A DNA stretch of 64,000 nucleotides from Oligoflexia bacterium (GCA_023701205.1 JAMPXJ010000015.1:1-64000); one strand, 5' to 3'; numbered from the stretch's first letter, positions 36,256 to 57,788 are shown. Numbers and translations are program-made. Notes: generated by a model from the sequence alone, not told the origin.

Positions 36256-36693
36256 ATGAGCCGCGACGATCACAGGACATCAGCATTTTCCGATTTCCCG
36301 ACGGATGAGCTGATCCGGATTTCCGATTTCGAGTCGATGAGGATTTCCGTCGGCGTCCAGAACACCACGACCCGAACCGAGGTGCCGGCAGACGAAAAGA
36401 CGGAGCTTCTCGAAGTGCGGAACCGGGGCGTGGTGCTCGCCTTGCCCGCCCGCTCCTGCTCGCAGGGGCACAATCTCATGGTCCGTTTCAGCGGGACCTC
36501 CTCTTCCAAGGAGAAGTTCGAATTCGTGAGCACGGCGAAGGTCGAGAAGGCGCAAGCGCTTGAGGACGGACAGGATCGCGTCACGCTGGTGTTCCTCCAG
36601 TACGACGAGGCCGGGTGGCAGAAGTTCTGCGCGCGTTTCAGCGACCGCCAGAATGAGATCGAGGCATTCCTGAAAGCGGCGCGGGGACTTTAA
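36256..36693 (+). CDS. PilZ-like domain protein, paralogue A
   Basis: A 145 aa small beta-rich protein. It is clearly paralogous to the protein at 57789-58247: both have an S-x-G/Y-xxQN-TT-T-VP block, EL-EV, then a G-(V/L)-x-LxLP-R-(A/S)-C-S-x-GH-x-L block and a C-terminal V-x-F-x-QY-(D/N)-E-x-x-W-x-x-F motif. The layout is that of PilZ domains, but the RxxxR and D/NxSxxG residues that bind cyclic di-GMP are absent, so ligand binding is doubtful. Two bases separate it from a receiver-TPR gene, as in the second copy. Confidence 0.65.
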   Translation: MSRDDHRTSAFSDFPTDELIRISDFESMRISVGVQNTTTRTEVPADEKTELLEVRNRGVVLALPARSCSQGHNLMVRFSGTSSSKEKFEFVSTAKVEKAQALEDGQDRVTLVFLQYDEAGWQKFCARFSDRQNEIEAFLKAARGL

Positions 36694-36695
36694 GG

Positions 36696-38081
36696 ATGAG
36701 CGGCAAAGTGGATCCCAAAGCGCAGGCGAAAGCTTTTGAACGCTACATTTCGGACAAGAAGATCCTGATCGCCGACCCGAGCGGGGCTTCGCGCATTTCG
36801 GTGGCGAATATCCTCGCTTCGATGGGCGCCAAGGCCACGCAGTTCATCCTCGTGTCGAGCTATACCGAGGCCGAGGACGCCATCGAACGCAACCAGCCCG
36901 GGATTGTGATCACGGATTACGACCTCGGAAAGCGCTGCGGGCTGGACCTGCTGCAGAAGCAGCGGGCGCACAACCTCTTCCTCAAAGAAAGCCTCTTCGT
37001 CCTGGTCACCGGCAACACCTCGCAGAGTGCGGTGGCCAAGGCGGCCGAGGAGGACGTCGACACCTACATTATCAAGCCCTTCACCGCGGGGGTTTTCCGC
37101 GCCTCCATCATGAAAGCCGCTCTGACGAAGATCGACCCGCCTGAGTATCTCAAGGTGATCGATCGAGGGAAGGAGGAGCTGAGCGCCGGCAAGGCTGACG
37201 AGGCCCTCAAGACCTTCGAGTACGCGACTACCCTGGATTCGGCGCCTTCGCTGGGCTGCTTTTACAGCGGCCAGGCGCATAACGCGAAGTCGGCGACGGA
37301 CAACGAGGAGGTCTCCTACAATCGGGGCCTCGAGTACAACAAGATCCATTACAAGTGTCTCGTCGGGCTGTACGAGAACTTCGCGGCCCGAAAGAAGCAT
37401 CACGAGGCCTACGAGGTCATCAAGAAGGTCTCGCATTACTTCCCGGCCAATCCCCAGCGCCTTACCGCCGTGCTCCGCCTCGCGATCGTGACCAAGAGCT
37501 ACGAGGACGTCGAGCGCTACTACCGCATCTTCACCAGCATCGACGACCGCAACGAGGAGATGATCAAGTACATCTGCGCCGCGCTCGTGGTCTGCGGGAA
37601 GTACTATCTCCAGCAGAACTTCGGAAGCCGGGCGCTCGAGCTTTTCCAGAAGGCGGCGATCACCGCGAGCGGCCGCACGAAGATCCTGCGCGAGATCATC
37701 ACCTCGCTGCTGGACTTCGGGCTGGCCAAGCAGGCTGACGAGTTCCTGCGGCGCTTCCCGCCCGACACTCACAAAGGCGTCGATTACCAGGCGATGAACC
37801 TCCTGGTCATGGACCAGATGAGCCCGCGAACGCTGGTCATCGAGAAGGGGCGTGAGCTGCTCACGCAGAACCTGCACGACCCCATCATCTATCGCGTCCT
37901 GATCCGCCGGAACGCGGAGCACGGTTTGAAGCACGCCGTGGATGACCTGATGGCCGAGGCGCTCAAGCGCTTTCCGGATCAGAGAGCGGTTTTCGAAAAA
38001 GCACTGGGTTCCTCTCCCAACGCTGCAAGTCCGGTTCCGCCGCCCGCTACACAAGCCCCGCAGGCGGGGACGAAAAAGTAA
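36696..38081 (+). CDS. Receiver domain-TPR protein, paralogue A
   Basis: A 461 aa cytoplasmic protein. Residues about 22-145 are a response-regulator receiver (ILIADPSG with acidic D27, phospho-acceptor D74 in VITDYDLG, T in LVTGNTSQ, K in YIIKPFTA). The rest is a TPR-like helical array ending in a Pro/Ala-rich tail. It is paralogous to 56442-57773 over its whole length (CGKYYLQQ versus CGLYFLQR; RFPDQRAVFEKALGSS versus DFPQERAYFENALGAS). It probably relays a phosphorylation signal by scaffolding. It is directly upstream of the gliding-type cluster. Confidence 0.82.
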   Translation: MSGKVDPKAQAKAFERYISDKKILIADPSGASRISVANILASMGAKATQFILVSSYTEAEDAIERNQPGIVITDYDLGKRCGLDLLQKQRAHNLFLKESLFVLVTGNTSQSAVAKAAEEDVDTYIIKPFTAGVFRASIMKAALTKIDPPEYLKVIDRGKEELSAGKADEALKTFEYATTLDSAPSLGCFYSGQAHNAKSATDNEEVSYNRGLEYNKIHYKCLVGLYENFAARKKHHEAYEVIKKVSHYFPANPQRLTAVLRLAIVTKSYEDVERYYRIFTSIDDRNEEMIKYICAALVVCGKYYLQQNFGSRALELFQKAAITASGRTKILREIITSLLDFGLAKQADEFLRRFPPDTHKGVDYQAMNLLVMDQMSPRTLVIEKGRELLTQNLHDPIIYRVLIRRNAEHGLKHAVDDLMAEALKRFPDQRAVFEKALGSSPNAASPVPPPATQAPQAGTKK

Positions 38082-38213: not shown

Positions 38214-39137
38214 ATGAGTCCATCGGGTGAAAAAAATCGGAAAACGCTGTTGGTGCTCGCGGCTCTCGTGGGTCTTCCCGTACTCCTGCTCGCGATCCGT
38301 TTCTCACTGATGCGCTCCGCTCCCAAACAAGAGGCGACGGAAACCGCCCAGGCCCCGAGCAGCAGCCAGCAAAGCCCTGCTTCCGAACAGGCCGAGAAGA
38401 CCCAAAGCGGAAACGTATCTGGCGACTCCTCCACCAAGCCGCAGGACTCCAGCTCCTCTCAAACAGCGCTTGAAAGCTCCGCTTCACCGGCCCAGACGCA
38501 AGCCCCGATGCAAGCCCAGCCCCCGCAGCCCCCGCGGACTTCGCAGCAGGCCGCCGCTCCGGCGGTCCCTCAGATCGTCGAGCCGCAGGGCTGTGTCACG
38601 CTGGCGTTCAAACACAAGAAGGCGACCGGCCACACCGATGAGGAAAGCTGCAGCCAGCACAAGAACCTGATCCGCCTCCCGCACGCGAACCCGACCTCGG
38701 TGTGCGTCCGGGTGAACAAGACCCCGGTACGCTTCCAGACCGTCGCGGGCAAGCCCAACGAGATCCTGCTCGGCGCGATCGCGGGCCCGAAATCCGAAAT
38801 CACCGCCCAGTACTGCTTCGGCAAGGCCAGCTGCGCCGACCTCAAGAAAGACTGCGTGATCCCGAAGGATGAGTTCATGGATGCCATCGGGGCCTCGGAC
38901 GACAAGCTCGCGCAGGCCGGCCGCTGGGACGCGGAGGGAGCCGGCAAGGACGCGGACGTGAACGCCCATCTGGATGCCGAGATGAAAAGGGAGCTCGACA
39001 ACCTGGACCGCCAGGTTCGGGGCGAAAACGGCGTGTTCAGCGACTGGATCGCCGGAACGCCCGCGATCTCCTGTGAAGGCAAGAAAGATCTCCTGGCCAA
39101 GACCACGGGCAAAGGAGCCGAAAAAGGAGCTCAATGA
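38214..39137 (+). CDS. Membrane-anchored periplasmic protein with Ser/Gln/Pro linker
   Basis: A 307 aa protein: short cytoplasmic N-terminus, one transmembrane segment (LLVLAALVGLPVLLLAIRF), a low-complexity linker rich in Ser, Gln, Ala and Pro to about residue 120, then a periplasmic domain with seven Cys (QGCVTLAF, EESCSQH, VCVRVN, YCFGKASC, KDCVI, SCEGK). The form, an anchor with a long tether, suits a part bridging inner membrane and cell wall. First gene after the AT-rich promoter; overlaps the vWA lipoprotein start. No family recognised. Confidence 0.7.
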   Translation: MSPSGEKNRKTLLVLAALVGLPVLLLAIRFSLMRSAPKQEATETAQAPSSSQQSPASEQAEKTQSGNVSGDSSTKPQDSSSSQTALESSASPAQTQAPMQAQPPQPPRTSQQAAAPAVPQIVEPQGCVTLAFKHKKATGHTDEESCSQHKNLIRLPHANPTSVCVRVNKTPVRFQTVAGKPNEILLGAIAGPKSEITAQYCFGKASCADLKKDCVIPKDEFMDAIGASDDKLAQAGRWDAEGAGKDADVNAHLDAEMKRELDNLDRQVRGENGVFSDWIAGTPAISCEGKKDLLAKTTGKGAEKGAQ

Positions 39138-40837
39138 TGTTTTACCTACGCTCCACCCTTCAGCTCAAGACCCTCTCCACGGCCGCGCTGGCGATCGGAC
39201 TCAGCGCTTGCACCGCATACGTGCCCGGCTCGTTCCGGCTGGCGCAGCAGGAGCAGAAATTCAGCTCCCAGCTCAAGGTCAATACCAAGATCGACCTGCT
39301 GTGGGTCGTCGACAACTCCTCCAGCATGGATGTCTCGCAGGAGAAGCTCCGCAACGGCTTCTCCGGCTTCGCGCGCAAGTACATGCAGCCGACCTGGGAC
39401 ATCCGGGTGGCGGTGATCACGACCGACACCTACCTGGCGAATCCCTCCTTCTCGAATTACCTGAATCGCACGATTCCGGGCACGACGGGCTGGACCTCGC
39501 CTTACGTGAACAGCCGGCTGGCGAGCTTCGCCAATCCCGCGAGCAATCCTTCGCTGGTCAACCTTTCGACGGGGAGATTCGACGCGGGCGTCCGCTATCG
39601 TGACCTCGTTCCCGCCTGGGGTCCCGACTTCTCGAAGCTGCTTCCGGGCAACCACGACGGCCCGATCGCCGGGTTCTGCTTCGAGGCGCTGCCGTATTTC
39701 CTTCTTGGCGTCACGCAATGCCCCGTCCGCGACGTCGCGGGCGCCCCGACGGGCGCCGCCCGGTGCCTCCGCCCCGAGTCCGGCGATTCCAGCATCAGCC
39801 AATGCGTGAACACCACGCAGAACGACACGATCCACAGCGGTCGCGCGGTCATCTCGACGATGCCTTCGGGCAAGCTCTCGGAGGCGGAGCTCACCGCCTG
39901 GACGAACCGCCTGGTCGACGACTTCATGATCAACGTCACGACCGGCAGCGTGGGCCACGGTTCCGAGCGGGGACTCGGCTCGATGCTTCAGCTGCTCGAC
40001 GACAACGAAACCAGCGAAAGCGCCTTCTTCCGCCCCGACTCCCTTCGCGGGATCGTCTTCGTCTCCGATGAGGACGACCAGACGCTTTCGCTCGACGCGA
40101 GCCCGGCCGCGGACTTCAATCCCTACAGCTCCTACCGCTGCGATCAGGCCTCCCTCGTCGCGCTCAACGGGGCCGCGCCGGTCACCGGCTCCAACGGGTT
40201 CTGCTGCTCGAACCCTTCCAATAACTGCCGTTTCGGAGCGGAGGGCACGAGCTGCGCCGCGAAGACGGTGGACGGCTTCACCTACACCTTGAGCGTCTGC
40301 CCGCGCGAAGACAAGCTGATGCCGGTTTCCGAGGTGAAGTCGAGGCTCGACAGCTTCTTCGCCCAGCTCGACGGCGGAACCGCCGATACCGGGAGCTATT
40401 TCGTGGTCTCGATCGTGGCCGCGACGGGCGAGGCGATCCAGAGCCTGCAGGCCAGCCGCGACCACGACGACACGGTCGCGGGCGGCTTCCACACCTTCGC
40501 CGTGGATCGCGGGGACCGCTACATCGAGCTCGGCAACCTCGTCGGCAACGGCAGCCTCACGCTCAACATCGCGGACCCCGACTACTCGCCGATCCTCGAC
40601 GCGATCGGGGCGGCCATCATCGCCAAGAAGAGCACCTTCTACCTGGATCGCGCGCCCACGGGCTCCGAGGACATGCTCATCAAGGTGCTCCATGCGGACG
40701 GAACCTCCACGGTGATTCCGGCCGACAAGTACGTGATCAGCGGCAAGACGATCGTGATCACCGACCAGAACCTGGTGCTCAGCCTGGCTGCGACTGACCA
40801 GATCAGCATCAACTACCAACCGAAAACGGTTTACTGA
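39134..40837 (+). CDS. von Willebrand A-domain lipoprotein
   Basis: A 567 aa lipoprotein (lipobox LSAC, Cys26) with a vWA domain from about residue 53. WVVDNSSSMD gives the metal-ion-dependent adhesion site D60-x-S62-x-S64, and FVSDEDDQ supplies a later acidic residue. Ten Cys occur after the lipid Cys, including GFCCSNPSNNC. The C-terminal 80 residues look like a separate beta domain. It lies 17 bases before the AglR-like motor gene. The combination of vWA lipoprotein and motor recalls CglB, the Myxococcus gliding adhesin. The start could be either of two adjacent ATGs. Confidence 0.85.
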   Translation: MMFYLRSTLQLKTLSTAALAIGLSACTAYVPGSFRLAQQEQKFSSQLKVNTKIDLLWVVDNSSSMDVSQEKLRNGFSGFARKYMQPTWDIRVAVITTDTYLANPSFSNYLNRTIPGTTGWTSPYVNSRLASFANPASNPSLVNLSTGRFDAGVRYRDLVPAWGPDFSKLLPGNHDGPIAGFCFEALPYFLLGVTQCPVRDVAGAPTGAARCLRPESGDSSISQCVNTTQNDTIHSGRAVISTMPSGKLSEAELTAWTNRLVDDFMINVTTGSVGHGSERGLGSMLQLLDDNETSESAFFRPDSLRGIVFVSDEDDQTLSLDASPAADFNPYSSYRCDQASLVALNGAAPVTGSNGFCCSNPSNNCRFGAEGTSCAAKTVDGFTYTLSVCPREDKLMPVSEVKSRLDSFFAQLDGGTADTGSYFVVSIVAATGEAIQSLQASRDHDDTVAGGFHTFAVDRGDRYIELGNLVGNGSLTLNIADPDYSPILDAIGAAIIAKKSTFYLDRAPTGSEDMLIKVLHADGTSTVIPADKYVISGKTIVITDQNLVLSLAATDQISINYQPKTVY

Positions 40838-40854
40838 ACGAAAGGGGAAACACT

Positions 40855-41595
40855 ATGTCCGGTATCTTCGAATTCCTGAGAACGAACTTCCTCCACGTGG
40901 CTCCGCTGCTGGTCGCCGCGGCCTTCGCGGTCGCGATCATCGCGGAGCGCACCAAAGCGCTCTTCGCGAGCTACCCGATCCGCGACTCCGAGTCGTTCTT
41001 CGACCGCATCAACGAGCTCGTCATGGCCGGCAAGGTGGCCGACGCGATCGCCCTTTGCGATCGCTATCCCGGCAAGCCGGCCGCCCGGGTCGTCAAGCAG
41101 GGCCTGCTCCGGGCCCACCAGCCCGAAGGCCTGATCGAAAACGGCCTGCAGCTCGCGGTGGGCGAGGCGACGCAGCTGATCCAGCGCCGGACCGGCTTCC
41201 TCGCGACCATCGCGAACGTCGCGACCCTGATGGGCCTCTTCGGCACCATCGCCGGCCTGATCCAATCGTTTCAGGCCGTCGGCCATGCGGATGCCCAGCA
41301 GAAGTCGGCCATCCTCGCGGCCGGTATCTCCACCGCGATGAACGCCACGATGCTGGGCCTGGCAGTTGCCATCCCTTGCATGATCGCGTTCAGCTTTCTC
41401 ATGAACCGGAGCAACCGGCTCGTGGCCGAGCTCGATCACTCCGCGGTGCGCACGCTCGACACGCTCAAGCAGCGTTACTACTCGGCCGAGACCGGCGCCA
41501 TCAGCGGCCAGGAGGAGCGCTTCGAGCAGGATGACGCTCCCGTGAGCAACGGCAAGCAGAACGGCAAGATCGTCAACCTGAGGAGAGCGGTATGA
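40855..41595 (+). CDS. MotA/TolQ/ExbB proton channel family protein (AglR-like)
   Basis: A 246 aa inner-membrane proton-channel subunit with three membrane segments (about 14-33, 115-140, 160-185) and the hallmark TIANVATLMGLFGTIAGLIQSF then AGISTAMNATMLGLAVAIP. With the two ExbD/TolR proteins that follow it would form a proton-motive-force-driven motor. One TolQ plus two TolR genes is the make-up of the AglR-AglQ-AglS gliding motor. AGGGGA precedes the ATG; it overlaps the next gene (ATGA). Confidence 0.93.
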   Translation: MSGIFEFLRTNFLHVAPLLVAAAFAVAIIAERTKALFASYPIRDSESFFDRINELVMAGKVADAIALCDRYPGKPAARVVKQGLLRAHQPEGLIENGLQLAVGEATQLIQRRTGFLATIANVATLMGLFGTIAGLIQSFQAVGHADAQQKSAILAAGISTAMNATMLGLAVAIPCMIAFSFLMNRSNRLVAELDHSAVRTLDTLKQRYYSAETGAISGQEERFEQDDAPVSNGKQNGKIVNLRRAV

Positions 41596-42053
41596 TGGTC
41601 AGCGGCGACTCGGGCCATGGCTCAGGCAGCCAGGACTTCGAGCTCAACCTCGCATCGATCATCGACTGCCTGACGGTGCTCATCACCTTCGTGCTCGCAT
41701 CGGCTTCCTTCCTTTCGATCGGCTTGCTCGATGCCGGCGTGGCCGCTGCCGGCGCGACCGCCGCGACGGACTCCAAGCCGCCCGAGGTGAATCTCACCGT
41801 CGAGCTGGGCAAGGATCACGCGATGACCGTGAAGATCGGCGGCAAGTCCACCTCGACCACCCAGATCCCCGCGAAGGCGGGCGCCTGGGACCAGGAGGCG
41901 CTGGCGCAGAACATCGCCACGCTCAAGCAGAAGTGGCCGGAGCTGAACGCCGCTGTGCTCACCGCCGGCGACGCGACCGAGTACCGCGACGTCGTGAAGA
42001 CGATGGAAACGATCCGAAAAACCGTGCCCGCCGTCCTGCTGGGCGGGTTCTGA
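41592..42053 (+). CDS. ExbD/TolR family protein 1 (AglQ/AglS-like)
   Basis: A 153 aa protein with one transmembrane segment containing the proton-carrying Asp (D25 in SIIDCLTVLITFVL) and a periplasmic domain of about 100 residues. Partner of the upstream TolQ-like channel. It differs from ExbD 2 in its longer hydrophobic segment (LASASFLSIGLLDAG). Confidence 0.9.
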   Translation: MMVSGDSGHGSGSQDFELNLASIIDCLTVLITFVLASASFLSIGLLDAGVAAAGATAATDSKPPEVNLTVELGKDHAMTVKIGGKSTSTTQIPAKAGAWDQEALAQNIATLKQKWPELNAAVLTAGDATEYRDVVKTMETIRKTVPAVLLGGF

Positions 42054-42075
42054 CAGATAACCGACGGGGACTCAG

Positions 42076-42579
42076 ATGAGAAAGCACAAGTTCAAGAGAC
42101 GCGCGCCGCAGAACGAGGAGATGAGCCTCCAGATCACCTCGATGGCCGATATTTTCACCATCCTGCTCGTGTTCCTCCTGAAGAGCTACGCGACGGGCGC
42201 CGTCAACGTGAGCCCGAGCGCCGGCACGCTGCTGCCCGAGGCGCAGGCGGGCGAAACCTCGGTCGAGGCGCTCAAGGTCGAGGTCTCCCAGGGCGCCGTG
42301 CTGGTCGAGGGACAGCCGGTCGCGAGCCTCAAGGAGTTCCGCTTCGAGAAGGGCGACCTCCAGGCCAACGGCTCTTCCGCGTCGCTCGGCAAGGCCCTCG
42401 AGAAGGAGCGGCAGCGCCAGCTCCTGATCGCGAAGGCGAACTCCGACGTGAAGGTCGACCCCAAGATCATCGTGGTTTCGGACCAGCGAGCCCCTTATTC
42501 CACGATCAAGTCCGTCCTCGCCTCCGCGGCCCTTCACGGCTACACTGATTTCAAGTTAGCCGTCGTCAAAGGGGAATAG
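42076..42579 (+). CDS. ExbD/TolR family protein 2 (AglQ/AglS-like)
   Basis: A 167 aa protein with a basic N-terminus, a transmembrane segment holding the conserved Asp (D25 in TSMADIFTILLVFLL) and a periplasmic domain. The second TolR homologue of the motor. A single base separates its stop from the next start. Confidence 0.9.
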   Translation: MRKHKFKRRAPQNEEMSLQITSMADIFTILLVFLLKSYATGAVNVSPSAGTLLPEAQAGETSVEALKVEVSQGAVLVEGQPVASLKEFRFEKGDLQANGSSASLGKALEKERQRQLLIAKANSDVKVDPKIIVVSDQRAPYSTIKSVLASAALHGYTDFKLAVVKGE

Positions 42580-42580
42580 C

Positions 42581-45500
42581 ATGGCTCTTGAGAAAGCAGT
42601 GGCGTTCGCCGCGATCGTCTTCGCCGGGACGGCGTTGGCAAATCCCGCAATGGAGGTCCGCGTCTCCCGGTCCGCGACGAGCGAGCAGCACGAGCGCAAC
42701 GTCGATGAAGTGGCGCTATCCGCCCAGGAAAAGGCGATCTCCCGGCTGCAGTCACTGCTCAGGAAATACCGCAATACCCGCCAGGAACCCGTACTGCTCT
42801 CGAAACTCGCCGACGTCCAGCAGCAGGCGGCCTCGATCCTCTTCCGCCTCTCGCTGGGAGGCAAGGCCGCCCGCGGCGCCGCCGGCAAAGCCCGATTCCA
42901 GAAGGCGATGAAGCAGGCCATCGCGAGCTACTCCACCCTGATCGCGAAGTATCCCCATTACGAGGAGATCGCGCACGCCTACTTCGCGCGCGGCAAGGGC
43001 TACGAGGAGCTCGATCAGAAGGCGCAGGCCACCAAGGACTACCTGCACCTCGTGAAAAACTTCCCGACCGCCGAGGAGGCGCCGTCGGCCTACATGTCCC
43101 TGGCCGAGTTCTCCATCCAGGAGAACAACCATGCCCGCGCGATCACCTACCTCAACGAGGTCGAGAAGCTCACGGAACATCCGCTGTATCCGTTCGCCCT
43201 CTACAAGCTCGCCTGGTCCCACTACAACCTCAAGAATATCCCGGCGGCGCTCTCCTTCGCCGAGCGCCAGGTCGCTTACTACAACGGGCGAAACAGCCCG
43301 GCCGACGGCACGGCGACTTCCGATGAAGCGCTGCGCGAGAATACCTTGCTCGATCTCGCCGTCTTCTACTTCGAAGGATACGAGCAGAAACGCGGGGAAT
43401 ACAGTCTTTCGAACGCCTATCCCTATTTCAGGAAAATCGAGGCCGGGCCCGTGCTCGGACGAATGCTGCATCGGTTCTCCAAGCTCCTGCGCTCGCATGA
43501 TCACGAGGAAGACCTCATGGCCTTCAAGGACGAACTCCTCAGGAAGGAGCCGGGCCGCGCCGAGACGCTCGAGGTCCTCCTGACGACCTACGAGTACCAG
43601 CTCAACAAGCGGCGCTACCAGCAGCTCATCCAGAGCTCGCAGGACCTGGTGACGCTGCATGCCCTCCTGCCGGAGGACCGCAAGTCGCCCGAGGCCGAGA
43701 AGCGCCACGCCACTTTCGCCCGCGCGCAGAAGCTGGTGCTGGATACCGCCGAAGGCCTGCAGGCGATGATCGTCAAGAACAAGGCCGCCGACGACGTCCG
43801 CTCCTATAGCGTGATCCTCGCTTCGATCTACGAGGCTTTCACCAAGATCGTCGACGAAACGGATCCTCGCATTCCCCGCGTGCATTACAACCTGGCGGAG
43901 ACCCTGTTCGCGATCAAGGACTTCAACGGCGCGACCACGCACTACCGCTGGGTGGTCGATCATGGCGACTGGGACGCCAAGACGAAGGATGGCCAGGCCA
44001 CCGTGCCGGACGCGAGCCTCAAGGCGATCGCGTCACGTTACGAGGTGCTCCGCGAGAAAAAGCTGATCCCCACGGAGCTCGCCGCCCGCTCGCCCGCCAA
44101 GGCCCGCGATACCGAGCTCGATCCGGCGCTCGCCGAATGGGTCCAATGGATCGATCGTCACGTGAAGCTCTCGGGCCGCGCGTCCGAATCCGCGGACAAT
44201 TTCGTCTTCGAAGCCAACCGCGCGCTCTACGCCCAGAACCATCTTCCCGACGCGCTCGCGCGGATGGGCGCCTTCGTCAAGCGCCGGCCGGGCTCGACCT
44301 TCGCCTCGCCTACCGCGAGCCTGATGCTCGATACCTATATCGCGGGCCAGGACTGGGAACGCACTCATGACCTCGCAGAGGAGCTCATGAAGTACAAGCC
44401 CCTGAACACGGGCGCTTTCCAGAAGAAGCTGCTTGCGGTCGCGGCAGACGCTTCCTACAAGCTCATCGAAGCCAGCCATGCGCGCCAGGATGCGGACGCG
44501 ACGATGGATGGCGCTGATGATTTCCTCGAGAAGTATCCGGCGAGCGACCGGCTATCCGACGTCCTCGCGCTCGCCGGCGCGGCCGGCCTTCGCGCCAATC
44601 AGAAGGCGCGGGCCGACATCTATTTCTCCCGCCTGATCAAGGAAGCCTCCAATCCCGGGAAGAGCATCAGTACGAGCAACCTGGGCGCCGCGCTGATCGC
44701 CCGTGCGCAGATGGCCGAGGAGCTCTACCGCTTTCCCGCCGCTGCAACGGATTACCGGGCCTATCTCGCGCTGCCGGCGAAGGCGCTGAAGCTCGAGGAA
44801 AGCAAGGCGGACGAACTCCGGAAGAAGACCCTCACCCTGATCTGGCTGGGTGGCGAGGACTCCGCTCTTAGCGCCGCCCTGAGCGACAAGACGCTCTGCT
44901 CCGAGGGGCTGGCGCAGGAATGCGACAAATTCTCCGCTCTCTCCGCGCTGAGCGCCTTCGCCCGGCTGTCCGACAACCAGAAAGAGGAAACCACCCGGAG
45001 CGCCTTCGAGCGGTGCCGGAAGAGCTCGGATTCAACCTCCAAGGAGAGCCGCGCGATCTGGGCCGCGGTCGCGCTGGAAGGGTCACGCGAGCTCGCCTTT
45101 CGCGACCGCAACGTCGCGCTCCGCAACCTCTCGGACAACTGGGACGAGCTGGATCCGCTCGTGCGCACCCACCTTCTCCCCTTCGTGACCGCTTCGATCC
45201 CGCGTGCGCTCGAGCAAAACCGCATCGCGATGAAGGACGTGGCCCCGCTGCGCGCCGACGAACGCTACATCACGAGGCGGGTCGAGGTGATCCGTGAGCT
45301 CGAGAACGCCACGACCAAGATCGTGAAGCTGCCCTGGGCGCGCATCCGGGCCGAATCCCTCAACGAGATCGCGGAAACCTACCTGGACTTCGCGCGCAGC
45401 CTCATGGGACTGAAGCCTCCCAAGGGCCTCAACGAGGAGGAGCTCGCCGCGTATCAGGACACGGTGAAAAAGCTCGTGTTCCCGTTCGAGGAGAAGGGAC

Positions 45501-46123
45501 AGGAGATGCGCTCGAAGTCCTTCGAGCTGGCTTCGAAGTTCGCCATCGAGGACGAGCCTTTCCGCAAGATCTCGGAGCCGTTCTTCGCCGAGAACCCGTC
45601 CCAGGCCAAGCGGCTGCGACTCCCGGCGGCGGTGAGCGCGCCCCCCGCGCTGGATCTGGCGTATCTCGCCAGCCTCGACCCCGATGGGAACTGGCAGGAG
45701 CTCGCCCGCCTGGCGGAAAGCGACTCACCCAAGCTCAAGAGCGCCGAGGCCAGGGTGAAAGCCTACTGGGCCAGGGCCCTGAAGAGCCGCCGGTGGCGCC
45801 AGGTCGCCTTTTTCCTTCAGGAGGCCCGCGAGAAATCCCTCATTCCCCCCGGCACCCTGGGCATAGTGCGCTCCGTCTCGCTCGCGGCGCTCGGCGCGCG
45901 GGCCGAAGGACTCACCGAGCTCGAGGACGCGCGCAAGAATCTCCCGCCCGAGGCGCGGATCGCGGCCTCCACCGTGCTCATGCAGCATTATCTCAAGGCC
46001 TTCGCCCGCGAGAAGACCCGCACGCTGTTCAAGGAGGTCGAGAGCGAGCAGGCCTCTCGAAACGAGAAGCCGAGCCAGGAGCAGGCCTCCCTCAACGCGC
46101 TCGCGACCACCGCGGTACAATGA
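42581..46123 (+). CDS. Large periplasmic TPR protein of gliding-type cluster
   Basis: An 1180 aa protein with a signal peptide (ending GTALA) and tetratricopeptide-like repeats over most of its length, clearest at about 110-235 (YFARGKGYEELDQKAQATKD, AYMSLAEFSIQENNHARAI, LYKLAWSHYNLKNIPAAL). It should lie in the periplasm as a scaffold, like AglT and the TPR Glt proteins of Myxococcus. AGGGGA precedes the ATG, one base after the second ExbD stop. Last plus-strand gene of the first half-cluster. Confidence 0.85.
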   Translation: MALEKAVAFAAIVFAGTALANPAMEVRVSRSATSEQHERNVDEVALSAQEKAISRLQSLLRKYRNTRQEPVLLSKLADVQQQAASILFRLSLGGKAARGAAGKARFQKAMKQAIASYSTLIAKYPHYEEIAHAYFARGKGYEELDQKAQATKDYLHLVKNFPTAEEAPSAYMSLAEFSIQENNHARAITYLNEVEKLTEHPLYPFALYKLAWSHYNLKNIPAALSFAERQVAYYNGRNSPADGTATSDEALRENTLLDLAVFYFEGYEQKRGEYSLSNAYPYFRKIEAGPVLGRMLHRFSKLLRSHDHEEDLMAFKDELLRKEPGRAETLEVLLTTYEYQLNKRRYQQLIQSSQDLVTLHALLPEDRKSPEAEKRHATFARAQKLVLDTAEGLQAMIVKNKAADDVRSYSVILASIYEAFTKIVDETDPRIPRVHYNLAETLFAIKDFNGATTHYRWVVDHGDWDAKTKDGQATVPDASLKAIASRYEVLREKKLIPTELAARSPAKARDTELDPALAEWVQWIDRHVKLSGRASESADNFVFEANRALYAQNHLPDALARMGAFVKRRPGSTFASPTASLMLDTYIAGQDWERTHDLAEELMKYKPLNTGAFQKKLLAVAADASYKLIEASHARQDADATMDGADDFLEKYPASDRLSDVLALAGAAGLRANQKARADIYFSRLIKEASNPGKSISTSNLGAALIARAQMAEELYRFPAAATDYRAYLALPAKALKLEESKADELRKKTLTLIWLGGEDSALSAALSDKTLCSEGLAQECDKFSALSALSAFARLSDNQKEETTRSAFERCRKSSDSTSKESRAIWAAVALEGSRELAFRDRNVALRNLSDNWDELDPLVRTHLLPFVTASIPRALEQNRIAMKDVAPLRADERYITRRVEVIRELENATTKIVKLPWARIRAESLNEIAETYLDFARSLMGLKPPKGLNEEELAAYQDTVKKLVFPFEEKGQEMRSKSFELASKFAIEDEPFRKISEPFFAENPSQAKRLRLPAAVSAPPALDLAYLASLDPDGNWQELARLAESDSPKLKSAEARVKAYWARALKSRRWRQVAFFLQEAREKSLIPPGTLGIVRSVSLAALGARAEGLTELEDARKNLPPEARIAASTVLMQHYLKAFAREKTRTLFKEVESEQASRNEKPSQEQASLNALATTAVQ

Positions 46124-46134
46124 GGGGCGACTGA

Positions 46135-46533
46135 TCAGGCGGCGCGCGGCGTCGTATTGACGGAACCGCCCGACTGGAGGATATCGTCCATGGAAATGAT
46201 ACCCACCATCCGCTTGGCCCGGTTCAGGACCGGCAATCGCCGGATATCCTGGTCCCGCATCTTGCGGGCGATATCCGAAACCGACTGATCCTCGAAGCAG
46301 TAGATCACGGGTGAGGTCATCGCATCCTGCACCTTCACCTCGTTGGGATCCTGCCCGGCCGAGACGGAGCGAATCACGATGTCGCGGTCGCTGATGATCC
46401 CGACGAGCCGATCCTGGCCGCAGACCGGGAGGATTCCGACATTGGCTTCATCCATCTTCCGGGCCGCCTCCTTGAGGGTCGCGTCCGGCCCGATGACCTC
46501 CACTCCCGAACTCATGATTTCCCTGACGTTCAT
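46135..46533 (-). CDS. CBS-domain pair protein
   Basis: A 132 aa protein of two tandem CBS domains (about 1-62 and 68-125), including VGIISDRDIVIRSVSAG and MVGIISMDDIL. CBS pairs bind adenine nucleotides and act as energy sensors. GGGAGA precedes ATG 46533. It forms a minus-strand pair with the BON-SRPBCC gene and interrupts the gliding-type cluster. Confidence 0.92.
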   Translation of the reverse strand: MNVREIMSSGVEVIGPDATLKEAARKMDEANVGILPVCGQDRLVGIISDRDIVIRSVSAGQDPNEVKVQDAMTSPVIYCFEDQSVSDIARKMRDQDIRRLPVLNRAKRMVGIISMDDILQSGGSVNTTPRAA

Positions 46534-46565
46534 CCGTTTTCTCCCTTCCTGTTGCTTCTCTCCCC

Positions 46566-46626
46566 GCGTGCATTCCGTCACGCGCCTTGCGCGTGCATTC
46601 CGTCACGCGCCTTGCGCGTGCATTCC
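46566..46626. repeat. 25-base tandem repeat, 2.4 copies
   Basis: Two exact 25-base units (46566-46590 and 46591-46615) plus 11 bases of a third. The array covers the stop codon and last codons of the BON-SRPBCC gene (MHAQGA then stop) and runs into the space before the CBS gene. On the minus strand each unit repeats the same short C-terminal coding sequence and stop. Confidence 0.9.
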
Positions 46627-47577
46627 TATGATCTGCCTGCGCGAAGGCCCTTCCTCGATCAGCGTCTTCATCTGCGCCAGCGCGCGCGCCACCTTCAGCT
46701 TAGGGCCGAAGCCGAAGACCTGGGCGGCGACGCGCCCCAACAGAGCTCCCGGCGGATGATACGACAGCTCCAGCTCCACCCGCGTTCCACCTTCGTCGTT
46801 CGCGCGGAACCTCACCCTGCCCGCATTGTGAATCACCGACCCGGGCATCGTGCGCCAGGAAAGATACTCGTTGGGCACCTTGCGCGTGACGACCGCATCC
46901 CAGCTCAACGGCGCGCCCCCGGGCCCGTCGACGACCCAATGCGAGCGCTTGCCGCCTGGCAGCGTCCTGACCTCGCGGACGTCCTTCATGAAACGGGGGA
47001 AATTCTCGAAGTTCGCCCAGAACTGGAACACTTGCGAAACGGGCGCCTCGATGTCGATGGACTTGCGGATTCGAAGAAAACGGGCCCGTCGGGCCCTAAA
47101 CCGCTTTCCCGGCTGACGCCCTCCCGTGGCGTCCATCGGTGTACTCAGAAGCTGATTGTCGACTTCGCGGACGCCGCGGACCCGATGCAGGGAGCTCACC
47201 AGGCGCGGCACCTCTTCCGGCGCGCAACGCCCCTTGAGAGTGACCCGACCCGCGTCGACGGAGACCTCGACCGAATGCGGATGCGATACAAGGCGTCCCA
47301 GGCGCGAGCGGACGCGCGCGACCAGAATGTCGTCGGCAGGGGTCTCCTGTTCGGCGATTCGGGCCCGTGTGTCGAGAATCAGGCCGCGCGACCGGTTGCC
47401 CAGGTCGGCCAAGCCCATCTTGATTGCGTTGCCGGACCGACGCGCAACATGCACGCCCCGCTGCCGCACCTCCGCGCGACGCCGACTTCCGCGCTGCGGA
47501 TCGAGGAAATACATGGCAGCAGCCCCGAGACCGAAGCCACTCAGGCTCCAAAACGTTCGCGATATGGCTTTCTTCAT
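46603..47577 (-). CDS. BON domain-SRPBCC domain protein
   Basis: A 324 aa protein with an N-terminal hydrophobic segment (FWSLSGFGLGAAAMYFLDP), a BON domain (about 82-143, VEVSVDAGRVTLKGRC, VRGVREVDNQL) and an SRPBCC/polyketide-cyclase-like domain (about 170-300, KSIDIEAPVSQVFQFWANFENFPRFM). The same architecture is widespread in soil and sediment bacteria and tends to be stress-linked. GGAGTG precedes the ATG. The C-terminal end lies in a 25-base tandem repeat. Confidence 0.88.
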   Translation of the reverse strand: MKKAISRTFWSLSGFGLGAAAMYFLDPQRGSRRRAEVRQRGVHVARRSGNAIKMGLADLGNRSRGLILDTRARIAEQETPADDILVARVRSRLGRLVSHPHSVEVSVDAGRVTLKGRCAPEEVPRLVSSLHRVRGVREVDNQLLSTPMDATGGRQPGKRFRARRARFLRIRKSIDIEAPVSQVFQFWANFENFPRFMKDVREVRTLPGGKRSHWVVDGPGGAPLSWDAVVTRKVPNEYLSWRTMPGSVIHNAGRVRFRANDEGGTRVELELSYHPPGALLGRVAAQVFGFGPKLKVARALAQMKTLIEEGPSRRQIIGMHAQGA

Positions 47578-47697
47578 AATTTCACTCCGTTGGCCAAGAC
47601 TGGTGCAAATCGGGTACCTCTTGCAAAGCCGTCAGCCCACGGTTCCATTCCTAACTATTGGTAATTACAAGATAATAAAAATACCTGATCGTATTGT

Positions 47698-47726
47698 TTG
47701 ATTTTTTTCATTTTGTTAAATAACAT
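47698..47726 (+). promoter_or_regulatory. AT-rich promoter of gliding cluster, second half
   Basis: TTGATT (47698-47703), 17 bases, TAACAT (47721-47726), aligned column for column with the promoter at 38150-38178. From TGTTTGATT to the ATG is 67 bases in both copies. Confidence 0.7.
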
Positions 47727-47761
47727 TAATCTTAGATATGCACTACCTCAGGGGATTTTCA

Positions 47762-48031
47762 ATGTGTCGGTTCTTGCGTCTGGCCTTCGCGATTCTGATC
47801 CTCAGCATGGCGGACCTCTCCGCCATCGCCGCAGGCCGCGACAGCAAACGCGCCAAAGTCATCGACTTCGAAGACGAGGTGGTCGAAGGCCTCAACCGTC
47901 GACCCCTGGACTCCCTGAGCCAGATCTCCGAACGCGACCGCAAGAGAAAGAAGCCGCACCTTTATCGCAAGCGCGCGAGCTTCAAGAGCGAAACCCGGGA
48001 AAGCCTGCGCACCGCGCGGTTCACGCCCTGA
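47762..48031 (+). CDS. Small basic exported protein of gliding-type cluster
   Basis: An 89 aa protein with a signal sequence (MCRFLRLAFAILILSMADLSAIAAG) and a very basic, highly charged mature part containing KVIDFEDEVVEGLNRRPLDSL and HLYRKRASF. AGGGGA precedes ATG 47762; an ATG at 47738 lacks a ribosome binding site. It heads the second half-cluster, 19 bases before the GltG-like gene. The family is not named to my knowledge, though the short mature chain looks under strong constraint. Confidence 0.7.
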   Translation: MCRFLRLAFAILILSMADLSAIAAGRDSKRAKVIDFEDEVVEGLNRRPLDSLSQISERDRKRKKPHLYRKRASFKSETRESLRTARFTP

Positions 48032-48050
48032 GGAAGAGGAGTAACGGTTG

Positions 48051-49589
48051 ATGAGCCACCCCAAGACTTCCAGCAGACATGACGAATACGTGGTGACGAC
48101 CTCGGCCCGGGGCAGCTCACGCACGCAAGTTTGGGACTCCGCGCGACCGTTGGCGATCGGCCACCCCCTGCGCTGGGTCGTCGAACGCACCGAAAAAGGC
48201 GTTCGTGTCCGGGACCTCTCCGCCCCCGGCCTGAAGGAGATTCCCGCCTCGCAGCTCGATGGAACCGAGCTGGATCTTCCGCGCGAGCCGGGCTCGCCCG
48301 ACAGCGATCGCGTCCGGCTCAAGATCCATCCCGTCCATCGCGTACTCCCCGCGTTCCACTCGAGCCAGGGCGGCGCGCTGAGCGTTTTCGCCTGCGCCGG
48401 CAACTGGGTTATCGACGCGCGCGTGCTCGCGGGCGCGGCCGCGACCTACGATGCGACGCTTTCGGGAAAGACGATCTTCTCGCTCACGAAGTCGGCCGGC
48501 GATGGCTGGGCCATCCTTCCGGTCGCCGAAGGCCTCGCATTGAAAGGCCCCGAGGAGAAACCCCTCGCCCCGGGCCAGCGCATCGAGCTGTCGCTTGAGC
48601 GGCTCAGCCAAAGCACCCTCACGCTTCAGACACCCGAAAAAGGCCTGCGCACGTGGCGCTTCGCGCTTTCGGAGAACCCCTCGCTCCCCGCGCCGAAACC
48701 CGGTCAGCTGCAGTTGGAGCCGGATGTCGAGCAGTTCCGCCTGGCCTTGAGATATTCGGGGATCGCCTTGGCCGCTTTCCTCGTGATGAGCTTCCTCTGG
48801 CCCAAGCCCAAGGTGGAGACCCAGGAGCTCATTCCCCCGCAGTTCGCCAAGATCGTGCTGTCGAAGCCGAAGACCGCGGATTCGCCGGCGCCCGGCGCCA
48901 AGGCCGACCCCAAGAGCACGGTGGCCGCCAACGCCCCCAAGAAAGTCCAGGAGGCCGCCGTGGTCCAGGCATTCCGGGCCAAGGCGCTTTCGAACGCGGT
49001 GAGCGGCCTGCTCAAGGGCGGCATGACCCGGCTTCTCGCGCAGTCCGATTTCGTCGCGGGCACCCGCAACAGCCAGGACGCGCGCCAGATGTTCGACTCC
49101 AAGTCCAAGTCGCTCCGGGCCACCGGCCCCGATACGGGGCTGATGGACGCGCGCAACGTCCAGGTCGGCGCGATCGGCGGCAGCGGCGCGGGCAGCGGCG
49201 GCGTAGGTTACGGCAAGGGCAACCACGCCGGCGTCAAGGGCCAGGGTGGCTCCTTCGTCACGATGGATACGACCGGCTCCACGGTCGACGAGGGCCTCTC
49301 CAAGGACGAGGTCGGCGAGGTCATCCATCGCCATATGAGCGAGGTTCGCTACTGCTACGAATCAGCGATGATCCGCACGCCCGACCTCGAGGGCAAGCTC
49401 ATCACGAACTTCGTGATCGGCGGCAACGGCATGGTGAAATCCACCGAGGTGAAATCATCGACCCTGCCGGATCCCCGGCTCGATGACTGCATCCTGCGGC
49501 GGCTGGCGACCTGGAAATTCCCTAACCCCCGCGGCGGCGTCGATGTCGCGGTCTCCTATCCATTCATCTTCAAGACACTGGGAAGGTAA
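48051..49589 (+). CDS. AgmX/GltG-like protein with TonB-like C-terminal domain
   Basis: A 512 aa inner-membrane protein. The N-terminal 240 residues are cytoplasmic and beta-rich, with an FHA-like look. A transmembrane segment lies at about 238-256 (YSGIALAAFLVMSFLW), followed by a periplasmic linker with a Gly-rich run (GGSGAGSGGVGYGKGN). The last 100 residues are an AgmX/PglI-type TonB-like domain (EVGEVIHRHMSEVRYCYE, LEGKLITNFVIGGNGMVKS, DDCILRRLATWKFPNP). It would carry motor energy across the periplasm to outer-membrane parts, as GltG and GltJ are thought to do. AGGAG precedes the ATG. Confidence 0.85.
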   Translation: MSHPKTSSRHDEYVVTTSARGSSRTQVWDSARPLAIGHPLRWVVERTEKGVRVRDLSAPGLKEIPASQLDGTELDLPREPGSPDSDRVRLKIHPVHRVLPAFHSSQGGALSVFACAGNWVIDARVLAGAAATYDATLSGKTIFSLTKSAGDGWAILPVAEGLALKGPEEKPLAPGQRIELSLERLSQSTLTLQTPEKGLRTWRFALSENPSLPAPKPGQLQLEPDVEQFRLALRYSGIALAAFLVMSFLWPKPKVETQELIPPQFAKIVLSKPKTADSPAPGAKADPKSTVAANAPKKVQEAAVVQAFRAKALSNAVSGLLKGGMTRLLAQSDFVAGTRNSQDARQMFDSKSKSLRATGPDTGLMDARNVQVGAIGGSGAGSGGVGYGKGNHAGVKGQGGSFVTMDTTGSTVDEGLSKDEVGEVIHRHMSEVRYCYESAMIRTPDLEGKLITNFVIGGNGMVKSTEVKSSTLPDPRLDDCILRRLATWKFPNPRGGVDVAVSYPFIFKTLGR

Positions 49590-49592
49590 ACC

Positions 49593-50384
49593 ATGAAAAC
49601 ACGACACCTGCAGCTGCTCCTCCCGATCTGCTCCATGCTCCTCCCGGGCGCGGCCCCTGCGGCCGAGGACGCCGACAAGGTCAACGTCGAGAGCATCAAG
49701 GAGAAATACTGGGCCCGCGGCGACGAGTCGGAGATCGGCGTCGTCCAGAACCGCCTCTATTCCAAAGCCTACAAATTCGAGTTCGGGATGTTCGGCGGCT
49801 CGCTCAATACCGACCCGTTCCTCGCGGTAAAGACCCTGGGCGGGAGCGTGGGATTCCATTTCAGCGAATACCTGGCCGCGAACGTCGTCGCCTGGAAGAC
49901 GTACGTCGGCCCATCGAGTGCTTACGATGGCTTCGTCGCGACGATCCAGGAGAGCGAGGGCGTGCCCGCGATCCCCACGACCAACGATCCGAAAGCCTAT
50001 CTGGGCGCCGAGGGTGAAGCCAGCATCCTCTACGGCAAGCTCAGCCTCCTCGGCAAGGCGATCATCTACTACGACCTGCACCTGCTGGGCGGCCTGGGCG
50101 TCACGAGCACGCAGAACGGGAACTACTTCACGCCTTCGCTGGGCATCGGCCAGCAGATCTACCTGAGTAAGGAAATCTCGGTCAGGCTCGATTACCGGGC
50201 GATGACTTATCGCGAAACCCTGATCGCGCGGCAGAGCGCGGCCGACCAGGCGGCGCTCGTGAACGCCGGCGAGGGCAAGCCCCGCACCAACTGGACCCAC
50301 GCGGTCACGCTGGGAATCAACTTCTTCTTCGGCTTCGAAAAGACCCCGGCGATCGAAGTGAGCAAGGAGGGGGTCAAGCCATGA
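49593..50384 (+). CDS. Outer-membrane beta-barrel protein of gliding-type cluster
   Basis: A 263 aa protein with signal peptide (ending APAAE) and alternating amphipathic strands (YKFEFGMFGGSL, GGSVGFHFSEYLAANVVAWK, NYFTPSLGIGQQIYLSKEISVRLDYRAMTYRE, VTLGINFFFGF), the pattern of the small outer-membrane barrels found in myxobacterial Glt clusters. It starts three bases after the GltG-like gene and overlaps the next TPR gene. Confidence 0.85.
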   Translation: MKTRHLQLLLPICSMLLPGAAPAAEDADKVNVESIKEKYWARGDESEIGVVQNRLYSKAYKFEFGMFGGSLNTDPFLAVKTLGGSVGFHFSEYLAANVVAWKTYVGPSSAYDGFVATIQESEGVPAIPTTNDPKAYLGAEGEASILYGKLSLLGKAIIYYDLHLLGGLGVTSTQNGNYFTPSLGIGQQIYLSKEISVRLDYRAMTYRETLIARQSAADQAALVNAGEGKPRTNWTHAVTLGINFFFGFEKTPAIEVSKEGVKP

Positions 50385-52243
50385 GACACGCCCTTGCCAA
50401 CGCATTTCTCGCCGTCACCTTGACCGCCGGTGCGCCGGCGCTCGCCGCCAACGACGTCGGTCCGGGCGAAAGCCATGCCCGCCACGCCTGCCAACCCAAC
50501 GAGAGCTGGACCCTGGGCTCCGGGTTCGTCAGCAAGCAGGAGGAGCTCGCCCGGGACTTCCGGTCCTTCATCTCCTCGCCGAAATCCCCGGTCCTGGGCT
50601 TCGCCCAGGCGCTGGCGATGCGCCGATATTCCCAAGGGGATGCGGCGCGCGCCCTCAGCGAGTACTGGATCTCGCGCTCGTTGTTCCAGGCGGGAATGCT
50701 GCACGTCGCGCACTCGGGCTTCGCGATCCTCGCGAGCCGGCCTCCCAGCCAGGAAACCGCCGGCATCCAGCTCGCCGCGCTCGAGTGTCTCCTTCGCATC
50801 GAGGAGCGCTATCCCGCGCTGACGATCCCGGCCCCGGTCGGCGGGAATCTCGCCACCCTGCGCGAGTTCAGCGAGATCTCGCCCCGGCACCGCGCGATCG
50901 TGCTCGAGGCGGCCACCCAGCAGCTGCGCGCGGATCTGGCGGCGGAGCAGCCCGATCCCTCGCGGCTGCAGAAGACCCTCGCGCTGCTCGCGGGCGGCGG
51001 CGTTTACGAAGCCCTTGGACGCGGCCTGGTCGCGGCCCGGCGCCACGAGCACAATCAGGTGGTGATCCAGCTCCGGAAATTCCTGGCCGAGCCCGTGATC
51101 CCGGCGCCCCTGCAGCGCTTCTCCGACTTCGCTCACATCGAGATCGCGCGCTCGCTCTACGCGATGGGCGACTACAATCGATCGGTGGAGCATTTCAAGA
51201 GCGTGAGCAAGAAGTCCAACGAGCTGGCACAGTCGCTTTCCGAGCTCTCCTGGGCCTACCTGCAGGGCGAACGCTACAGCGAGGCGATCGGCACCGCGAT
51301 GAGCCTCCAGGCCGGGGGCCTACGCAACACCTTCACGCCCGAGGCGGTGATGGTGATGGCGATGGCCCTCAACGAGCTTTGCCAGTATCCCGAGTCGGTC
51401 AAGGCGTCCAACCTCTTCAAGAAGAACTTCGAGACGCCGTACCGCTGGCTTTCCGCCTGGAAGGGCTCGCCGGAAAAGAAGCGCGACAACCTCTATCCGC
51501 TCGCGATCCAGTACCTGAAGAAGTCCGGCACGACGCCCCCGCGCGTCGCGAGCGAGTGGATCCGCTCGCCGCTCTTCATCTCCAACCAGGAGGAGCTCAA
51601 TCTCTTCCATGACGAGATCGAGGCGGCCGCCCGCCTCGGTAAGTCCGGCGGAATCGAGCAACGCCTCATCGGCCAGGGCATCGTGAAATCCATCCAGGAG
51701 CTCCGGCCCCGCATCCGCGTCGCCCGCGCGAAGATCGGCCCCGAGGCTCCGCTGCCGGAGAAGCTCGCCGTCCAGCTGCGCGGCCTGAAGACGGAGCTGA
51801 TCCGCTACCGCCGGCTGCAGGCCGCGGCCCCCGTCTGGAAGACCATTCTCCAGCGGCACGAGCAGGGCGCGGAACCCGCGCGCGCGCGCCTGATCGCCGG
51901 GATCAACGCGGATCTCAAGCGCCGCAGCTATCGCATGGGTGACCAGCTCGAGGAGATCATGGAAAACCTCCAGCTCGTCGAGGTCGAGATCTACAACGGC
52001 GCGAGCCAGGACATCATCTGGCAGAACGCCCACCCCGACTACAAGGTCATCGCGCAGAAGCTCAAGGACGAGAAGGACCGCGCGCAGGCCGGCAAGGTCT
52101 GGGACTGGGGCCGGGCCCCGGCGGGGACCGAGGACGCGGCCGAGATCTGGGAAGACGAGCTCGGCTCCTTCAAGGCCGATCTCTTCGACAACTGCTCGAG
52201 CAAGGACAAGTACCTCGCGCTTCGCATGAAAAGGAGAGAGTGA
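50381..52243 (+). CDS. Periplasmic TPR protein (AglT/GltE-like)
   Basis: A 620 aa protein with signal peptide (ending PALA), helical repeats through the middle (HIEIARSLYAMGDYNRSVEHF, SELSWAYLQGERYSEAIG) and a long charged helical C-terminal part (QLEEIMENLQLVEVEIYNG, KDEKDRAQAGKVWDWG). It probably scaffolds the periplasmic part of the machine. Starts in an ATGA overlap with the barrel gene. Confidence 0.82.
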   Translation: MRHALANAFLAVTLTAGAPALAANDVGPGESHARHACQPNESWTLGSGFVSKQEELARDFRSFISSPKSPVLGFAQALAMRRYSQGDAARALSEYWISRSLFQAGMLHVAHSGFAILASRPPSQETAGIQLAALECLLRIEERYPALTIPAPVGGNLATLREFSEISPRHRAIVLEAATQQLRADLAAEQPDPSRLQKTLALLAGGGVYEALGRGLVAARRHEHNQVVIQLRKFLAEPVIPAPLQRFSDFAHIEIARSLYAMGDYNRSVEHFKSVSKKSNELAQSLSELSWAYLQGERYSEAIGTAMSLQAGGLRNTFTPEAVMVMAMALNELCQYPESVKASNLFKKNFETPYRWLSAWKGSPEKKRDNLYPLAIQYLKKSGTTPPRVASEWIRSPLFISNQEELNLFHDEIEAAARLGKSGGIEQRLIGQGIVKSIQELRPRIRVARAKIGPEAPLPEKLAVQLRGLKTELIRYRRLQAAAPVWKTILQRHEQGAEPARARLIAGINADLKRRSYRMGDQLEEIMENLQLVEVEIYNGASQDIIWQNAHPDYKVIAQKLKDEKDRAQAGKVWDWGRAPAGTEDAAEIWEDELGSFKADLFDNCSSKDKYLALRMKRRE

Positions 52244-52244
52244 G

Positions 52245-52814
52245 ATGAGCTCCCAACGGAATTCCGCGATTTTCCTCGGCCGGGCCGGGAAGAAGTTCGG
52301 CCCCTACACGCATGCCGAGATCCAGGCTCTGCGCGAAAGCGGCGAGCTCGCCTCCTACAGCTGGATCTGGGAAGACGCCGCGGGCTGGAAGCCGCTGGAC
52401 TGCCCGCCGCCGGAGCCCGCCTCGGTTTCCGACGAAGAGGTACCCAGCCCTCCTTCCGACGCTCCGACGACGGCTTCGGCGGCTCCGACGCGGACTCCCG
52501 CGCCCGCTCGGGCGCCCGCGCCGGCCACTCGGGTCAGCGAGGCCCGGAGCCTCGCCTTCGACGTCATCTGTCATGACTTCCACCAGGTCCTGAGCGGGAA
52601 GCTTCAACGCGTCACCGACACCGGGTGCGAGCTCGTCTCAGAGGAGGAGAACGGTCCTCAGTTCAACCGGCGCGGCACTCTCGTCCTGAATATCCTGGAT
52701 CCCGCCACGGGTCGGGCCACCAACGCCCATGCACGGCTCTCGTCCGTGTCCCGGGTCGACGGCAAATGGGTCTGCCGGCTTCAGTGGGAACGCTGTCCCG
52801 AGCTCATCGCCTGA
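52245..52814 (+). CDS. GYF_2-PilZ-like domain protein
   Basis: A 189 aa cytoplasmic protein. Residues about 8-52 are a GYF_2 domain (KFGPYTHAEIQALRESGEL, WEDAAGWKPL), a proline-rich-peptide-binding module also found in GltJ. A Pro/Ala/Thr linker (55-95) leads to a PilZ-like domain (FDVICHDFHQVLSGKLQRVTDTGCEL, WVCRLQWERC). The RxxxR and D/NxSxxG residues for cyclic di-GMP are not intact. AGGAGAG precedes the ATG one base after the TPR stop. Last gene of the cluster. Confidence 0.78.
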   Translation: MSSQRNSAIFLGRAGKKFGPYTHAEIQALRESGELASYSWIWEDAAGWKPLDCPPPEPASVSDEEVPSPPSDAPTTASAAPTRTPAPARAPAPATRVSEARSLAFDVICHDFHQVLSGKLQRVTDTGCELVSEEENGPQFNRRGTLVLNILDPATGRATNAHARLSSVSRVDGKWVCRLQWERCPELIA

Positions 52815-57773: not shown

Positions 57774-57788
57774 GATGTTTCCGGAATT

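Follow-up and report, generated by a model that had tools for sequence, protein, structure and literature searches.

Gliding of Myxococcus xanthus depends on GltH, GltI, GltJ and GltK, of which GltJ carries a GYF domain, and the Nfs machine of the same species works with the Agl motors on the spore coat. The Agl-Glt core complex is composed of AglR, AglQ, AglS, GltC, GltD, GltE and GltG (Luciano 2011). GltF of M. xanthus is a protein of 89 aa encoded directly upstream of gltG (PMC3169522 Table 1), and the Myxococcus Glt complex recruits the vWA adhesin CglB (PMC13104615). For Bdellovibrio bacteriovorus HD100, four agl/tonB operons were listed in 2010, and one of them, Bd1473-Bd1483, is elevated under host-independent growth and reduced 30 min into predation (PMC2797640). 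A 2011 study favoured another set, Bd0828-Bd0838, as the Bdellovibrio gliding machine (PMC3169522). In strain 109J, mutants with transposon insertions in Bd1481 (aglR) and Bd1483, published in 2008, showed a lessened biofilm reduction (36.2 and 38.4%) and still formed halos (PMC2277423). Deletion of bd1483 in HD100 gave predation indistinguishable from wild type and normal prey invasion (PMC11003981). Taken together, the 109J biofilm phenotype and the normal invasion in HD100 suggest that the set serves on surfaces or in biofilms and not in prey invasion.

The window analysed here, a stretch of 64,000 nucleotides (contig C48:1-64000 of a 4.1 Mb assembly in 51 contigs), comes from an uncultured member of the Bdellovibrionota and carries an operon of this known, incompletely understood type, here in an uncultured relative of Bdellovibrio. 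Eleven machine genes with coding-like codon usage occupy the plus strand at 38214-52814 (Table 1). They are arranged in two tight blocks, the first encoding, from 5' to 3', the protein starting at 38214 (P38), the vWA lipoprotein, AglR, AglQ, AglS and GltD, and the second GltF, GltG, the barrel, GltC and the GYF-PilZ protein; within each block, neighbouring genes overlap by 4 bp or lie 2-23 bp apart. All parts named in the first-pass annotation are real genes at the coordinates given there. Two genes on the minus strand (46135-47577) split the operon at the gltD/gltF junction; they encode CBS and BON/polyketide-cyclase proteins that stand outside the machine. Some relatives carry extra DNA at the same gltD/gltF junction, and in others the second block appears alone within the fetched stretch. 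The small protein and receiver-TPR protein encoded upstream are possible regulators; the pair adjoins the operon in two related loci (L048, L056), and the small protein alone does so in L047. A second small-protein and receiver-TPR pair (56442-58202, minus strand) lies on the other flank of the operon in the opposite orientation, and the two flanking receiver-TPR proteins look paralogous. On the same strand as the GYF-PilZ gene and beginning 71 bp beyond it, a purple-acid-phosphatase-like metallophosphoesterase is encoded at 52885-54180.

Table 1. Genes of the Agl-Glt locus in the window, with neighbouring and inserted genes.
Feature	Position	Strand	Supporting match or property
145-aa small protein + receiver-TPR protein (upstream pair)	36256..38081	+	Response_reg 7.2e-11
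P38, membrane-tethered periplasmic protein, 307 aa	38214..39137	+	helix at 9-33 near the N-terminus, then a low-complexity linker and a small beta domain with conserved cysteines
vWA/MIDAS outer-membrane lipoprotein, 567 aa	39134..40837	+	NF052240 1.8e-8, CglD 5.3e-6
AglR, TolQ/MotA/ExbB-type proton channel subunit	40855..41595	+	PF01618 (MotA_ExbB) 8.8e-27
AglQ, TolR/ExbD-type	41592..42053	+	PF02472 (ExbD) 2.1e-10
AglS, TolR/ExbD-type	42076..42579	+	PF02472 (ExbD) 2.3e-12
GltD, periplasmic TPR protein, 1180 aa	42581..46123	+	TPR_6 1.4e-7
CBS-domain protein	46135..46533	-	PF00571 4.4e-31
BON + polyketide-cyclase/START-like protein	46603..47577	-	PF03364 1.9e-17, BON 9.2e-7
GltF, 89 aa, signal peptide, basic	47762..48031	+	equal in length to M. 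xanthus GltF and likewise just before gltG
GltG, TonB-like energy transducer	48051..49589	+	NF033760 3.8e-37; NF033768 (AgmX/PglI) 1.3e-31
Outer-membrane beta-barrel, GltA/GltB-type, 263 aa	49593..50384	+	OMP_b-brl 0.03 only
GltC, periplasmic TPR protein, 620 aa	50381..52243	+	NF033756 3.6e-12
GYF-PilZ protein, 189 aa	52245..52814	+	GYF_2 8.7e-4; signal peptide/TM absent

The motor of one TolQ and two TolR proteins that had been proposed for this locus is encoded by real genes with clear family matches, and the transmembrane aspartate is kept in both TolR-type proteins (IIDCLTVLI in AglQ, MADIFTILL in AglS). In a tree of AglR sequences, the window protein falls within the Agl clade (100/100), separate from the genome's own TolQ/ExbB, and its lineage forms a clade of 14 (100/99) inside it. 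Bd0828 of HD100 is placed together with Myxococcota (96/98), and the HD100 Bd1473 set does not group with the window in the tree of AglR alone. The genome's own TolQ-type gene lies at 67.7 kb of C48 with a TolR-size gene beside it. The AglQ of the HD100 Bd1473-Bd1483 set (L147:13847-14401, minus strand) lacks the transmembrane aspartate that is present in the other aligned AglQ sequences; such a motor subunit may be impaired or coupled in a different way.

The TPR, TonB-like and barrel parts of the first reading likewise correspond to real genes with profile and HD100 matches; for GltD, GltF and the barrel, the assignment draws on protein size, gene position and matches to loci of HD100 and Myxococcota. 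GltD, close in length to the 1191 aa of its M. xanthus namesake, matches GltD of the HD100 Bd1473 set (5.5e-23) and of Myxococcota (5.4e-20). GltF is matched in 47 related loci and weakly by Myxococcota GltF (1.2e-4 to 4.4e-3). GltG comprises a cytoplasmic N-domain, a transmembrane segment at about 232-250 (hydropathy), a periplasmic linker and an AgmX/PglI C-terminal domain; this tail scores 108.6 bits against NF033768, above the cut-off of 40, and the protein matches HD100 GltGs at up to 8e-40. No FHA domain was detected in GltG, where profile similarity is weak (27% probability). GltC matches its counterpart in the HD100 Bd1473 set (2.3e-23) as well as Myxococcota proteins. Since GltG stays under the NF033760 equivalog cut-off (650 bits) and GltC under that of NF033756, both are relatives rather than Myxococcus-grade orthologues, and no Myxococcus GltG or GltC over the cut-off was found in the sampled genomes. 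The barrel matches that of the HD100 Bd1473 set (6.3e-18) and has 51 matches across related loci, inside or adjoining the operon; it is the only barrel in the locus, and profile search returned no match to a GltA or GltB model. The Myxococcota protein at the GltE position matches the HD100 Bd0828 set (2e-11) and no gene in the window locus. GltH, GltI, GltJ and GltK were not recognised among the profile matches of the locus, where GltJ gave only a low-complexity match to P38 (9e-4).

Three further proteins accompany these parts. The vWA lipoprotein, a candidate surface adhesin, is the counterpart of HD100 Bd1483 (1.4e-19 to the vWA protein of that set), and its lipobox C26, MIDAS DxSxS (D60, S62, S64) and downstream D312 are invariant in 18 sequences; a sequence search of the PDB gave no match. 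Its gene stands immediately before aglR in 17 fetched loci. The GYF protein of the first-pass annotation does contain a GYF domain, to which a second, PilZ-fold domain is now added: the AF2 model shows two domains (pLDDT 84), and the C-terminal one resembles PilZ structures with a Foldseek probability of 1.0, but at E-values of 2.5e-3 or worse. It is the counterpart of HD100 Bd1482, which matches GYF_2 (9.7e-9) and passes the Pfam cut-off for PilZ (1.8e-12). P38 is kept in 23 related loci, adjoining aglR or vWA, with invariant C127, C164, C207, C214 and W278 and a beta domain (127-201) modelled by AF2 at a pLDDT of about 78-95. It matched no known family, and no counterpart was found in the HD100 sets; its fold search against the PDB gave nothing below E 0.049, with TM-scores <0.2 on the query, and these matches were therefore treated as noise. 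Of the three parts first singled out as unfamiliar, only P38 is truly so and represents a new component; the 89 aa basic protein is GltF, and vWA lipoproteins occur in three of the four Glt sets of HD100.

The scan of genome contigs yielded assemblies of uncultured organisms alone, almost all of them under Bdellovibrionota titles; cultured Bdellovibrio and Myxococcus were not among them. The HD100 genome, reached through the MIDAS family, was recognised by residues of Bd0875 that agree with the published D66, E213 and Y349 at an offset of two. GltG-like proteins were present in 57 of the 58 genomes searched, and the fetched loci show the order P38-vWA-AglR-AglQ-AglS-GltD-GltF-GltG-barrel-GltC-GYF either in full or for part of its length. 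Its recurrence in dozens of Bdellovibrionota contigs argues against chance, and the genes are thus syntenic rather than scattered in close relatives. Two loci from records titled Nitrosovibrio sp. and Lysobacteraceae (L078, L087) carry a Bdellovibrionota-type operon, and these assemblies are probably misnamed or mixed. In a tree of concatenated AglR, AglQ, AglS, GltD, GltG and GltC, the HD100 Bd1473-Bd1483 set is sister to the window clade (97.8/99); the link between the two rests on this concatenation and on the common vWA and GYF-PilZ genes, as AglR alone does not recover it. The window genome encodes two further Agl-Glt sets with FHA-bearing GltG, C30 (L065) and C47 (L063), the latter with a GltF likewise of 89 aa, and an MglA-like small GTPase (L198, G000:C25, match 7957-8304), whose identity was read from the sequence, the Arf model PF00025 being weak for MglA in general.

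The neighbourhood comparison with Myxococcus and Bdellovibrio thus identified HD100 Bd1473-Bd1483 as the counterpart. Both sets encode vWA, GYF-PilZ, AglR, AglQ, AglS, GltD, GltF-size (82 aa in HD100), GltG, barrel and GltC proteins, and in HD100 no gene lies between GltD and GltF. They differ in that the HD100 set has a vWA protein of 353 aa (567 aa in the window) and the GYF-PilZ gene before aglR rather than at the 3' end. P38, the two inserted minus-strand genes and the intact AglQ aspartate are found only in the window, where no Bd1473-like coiled-coil gene was seen and where the PilZ domain lacks the recognisable c-di-GMP motifs RxxxR and SxSxxG present in Bd1482. HD100 Bd0828-Bd0838, which groups with Myxococcota, and the C30 set, weakly grouped with it in the concatenated tree (42.6/78), share AglRQS, GltC, GltD, GltF, GltG and a barrel with the window, but their GltG bears an FHA domain and vWA and GYF genes are absent. 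The HD100 operons Bd0412-0420 and Bd2368-2377 share AglRQS, GltD-size and GltF-size genes, GltG, barrel, GltC and vWA; in both, the vWA lipoprotein is encoded at the 3' end and an extra protein of 356-386 aa lies between GltG and the barrel, and neither is sister to the window set. With M. xanthus, the window has in common the motor stoichiometry, GltC, GltD, an 89 aa GltF, GltG, a barrel, the concept of a vWA adhesin and an MglA in the genome, whereas the locus has one barrel instead of two (GltA, GltB), adhesin and motor in one operon and the GYF domain on a PilZ protein. The core complex is represented by an Agl-clade motor, GltG with its TonB/AgmX C-terminus, GltC and GltD. The earlier identification of an Agl-Glt machine is correct: AglR, AglQ, AglS, GltC, GltD, GltF, GltG and a barrel are encoded, but GltE was not found and only one barrel is present. 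The proposal of a variant not described before is for the most part not supported, since the HD100 counterpart has been on record as an agl/tonB operon since 2010 (PMC2797640) and as mutants since 2008 (PMC2277423).

The locus is probably an Agl-Glt set of the Bd1473-Bd1483 type, most likely serving to glide on, or adhere firmly to, surfaces and biofilms. This reading is based on the family matches, the placement in the Agl clade, the concatenated tree and the common vWA and GYF-PilZ genes, and also on the conserved order, the intact aspartates, MIDAS and lipobox, the MglA, the 109J biofilm phenotype and the recruitment of CglB in Myxococcus. Counted against it are the tree of AglR alone, the HD100 AglQ without the aspartate, the absence of an HD100 counterpart of P38, GltE, which was not found, GltH, GltI, GltJ and GltK, which were not recognised, and the 2011 preference for Bd0828-0838 (PMC3169522). 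Surface gliding or adhesion is favoured over prey attachment, the other task first suggested, as the HD100 bd1483 deletion strain invades normally (PMC11003981). By analogy with Myxococcus (PMC3169522, PMC4488436, PMC13104615), AglR, AglQ and AglS would form a proton-driven inner-membrane motor in which proton flow moves GltG, a TonB-like arm through which force reaches the periplasm. This compartment would be spanned by GltC, GltD and GltF, and GltG would engage the GltC/barrel station at the outer membrane, together with the vWA adhesin. The vWA lipoprotein may then be loaded and pulled by the complex as a surface adhesin, comparable to CglB, while the cytoplasmic GYF-PilZ protein might regulate or assemble the complex; the roles of this protein and of P38 are guesses.

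An Agl-driven complex that builds or moves surface material in the manner of Nfs, rather than serving gliding, could account for several paralogous sets in one genome, as with the gliding and Nfs sets of Myxococcus, for the Nfs paralogues of GltA, GltB and GltC (PMC4488436) and for a locus in which GltE was not found. It is nevertheless unlikely, given the biofilm-predation phenotype in 109J and the co-encoding of a MIDAS adhesin lipoprotein with GYF-PilZ, which is conserved in the fetched loci. Somewhat less probable still is a TonB-like energiser of outer-membrane uptake or secretion that merely resembles a gliding machine: Lambert 2010 proposed secretion or uptake as an alternative (PMC2797640), core complexes occur in bacteria without documented gliding (PMC3169522) and the GltG C-terminus is a TonB-like domain, but no TonB-dependent receptor was recognised in the operon, an adhesin lipoprotein is present and GltC, GltD and GltF are conserved. 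An ordinary Tol-Pal or ExbBD-TonB system, to which the TolQ/TolR folds and the closest solved structures (TolQ, ExbB) might point, is highly improbable and is ruled out by the AglR tree, with its separate Agl clade, and by the gene content, Glt parts being present and the genome's own TolQ-type gene lying elsewhere.

A 2026 review names the identity of the motor, the adhesins and the force transmission behind Bdellovibrio gliding as a major open challenge (PMC13104615). Here, an operon of the Bd1473-Bd1483 type joins motor, transducer, barrel, candidate adhesin and PilZ-type regulator, which suggests a pairing of motor and adhesin; an HD100 bd1483 deletion strain already exists, and the tests published for it dealt with predation. 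A tentative extension, which we regard as possible but doubtful, is that such a locus encodes a self-contained Agl-Glt machine with a dedicated vWA adhesin loaded by the adjacent motor, a GYF-PilZ protein that takes over assembly from the GYF domain of GltJ and couples it to cyclic dinucleotides in some members, and P38 as a new transducer or anchor. If this is true, each paralogous set in a cell would amount to a motor of its own with its own grip.
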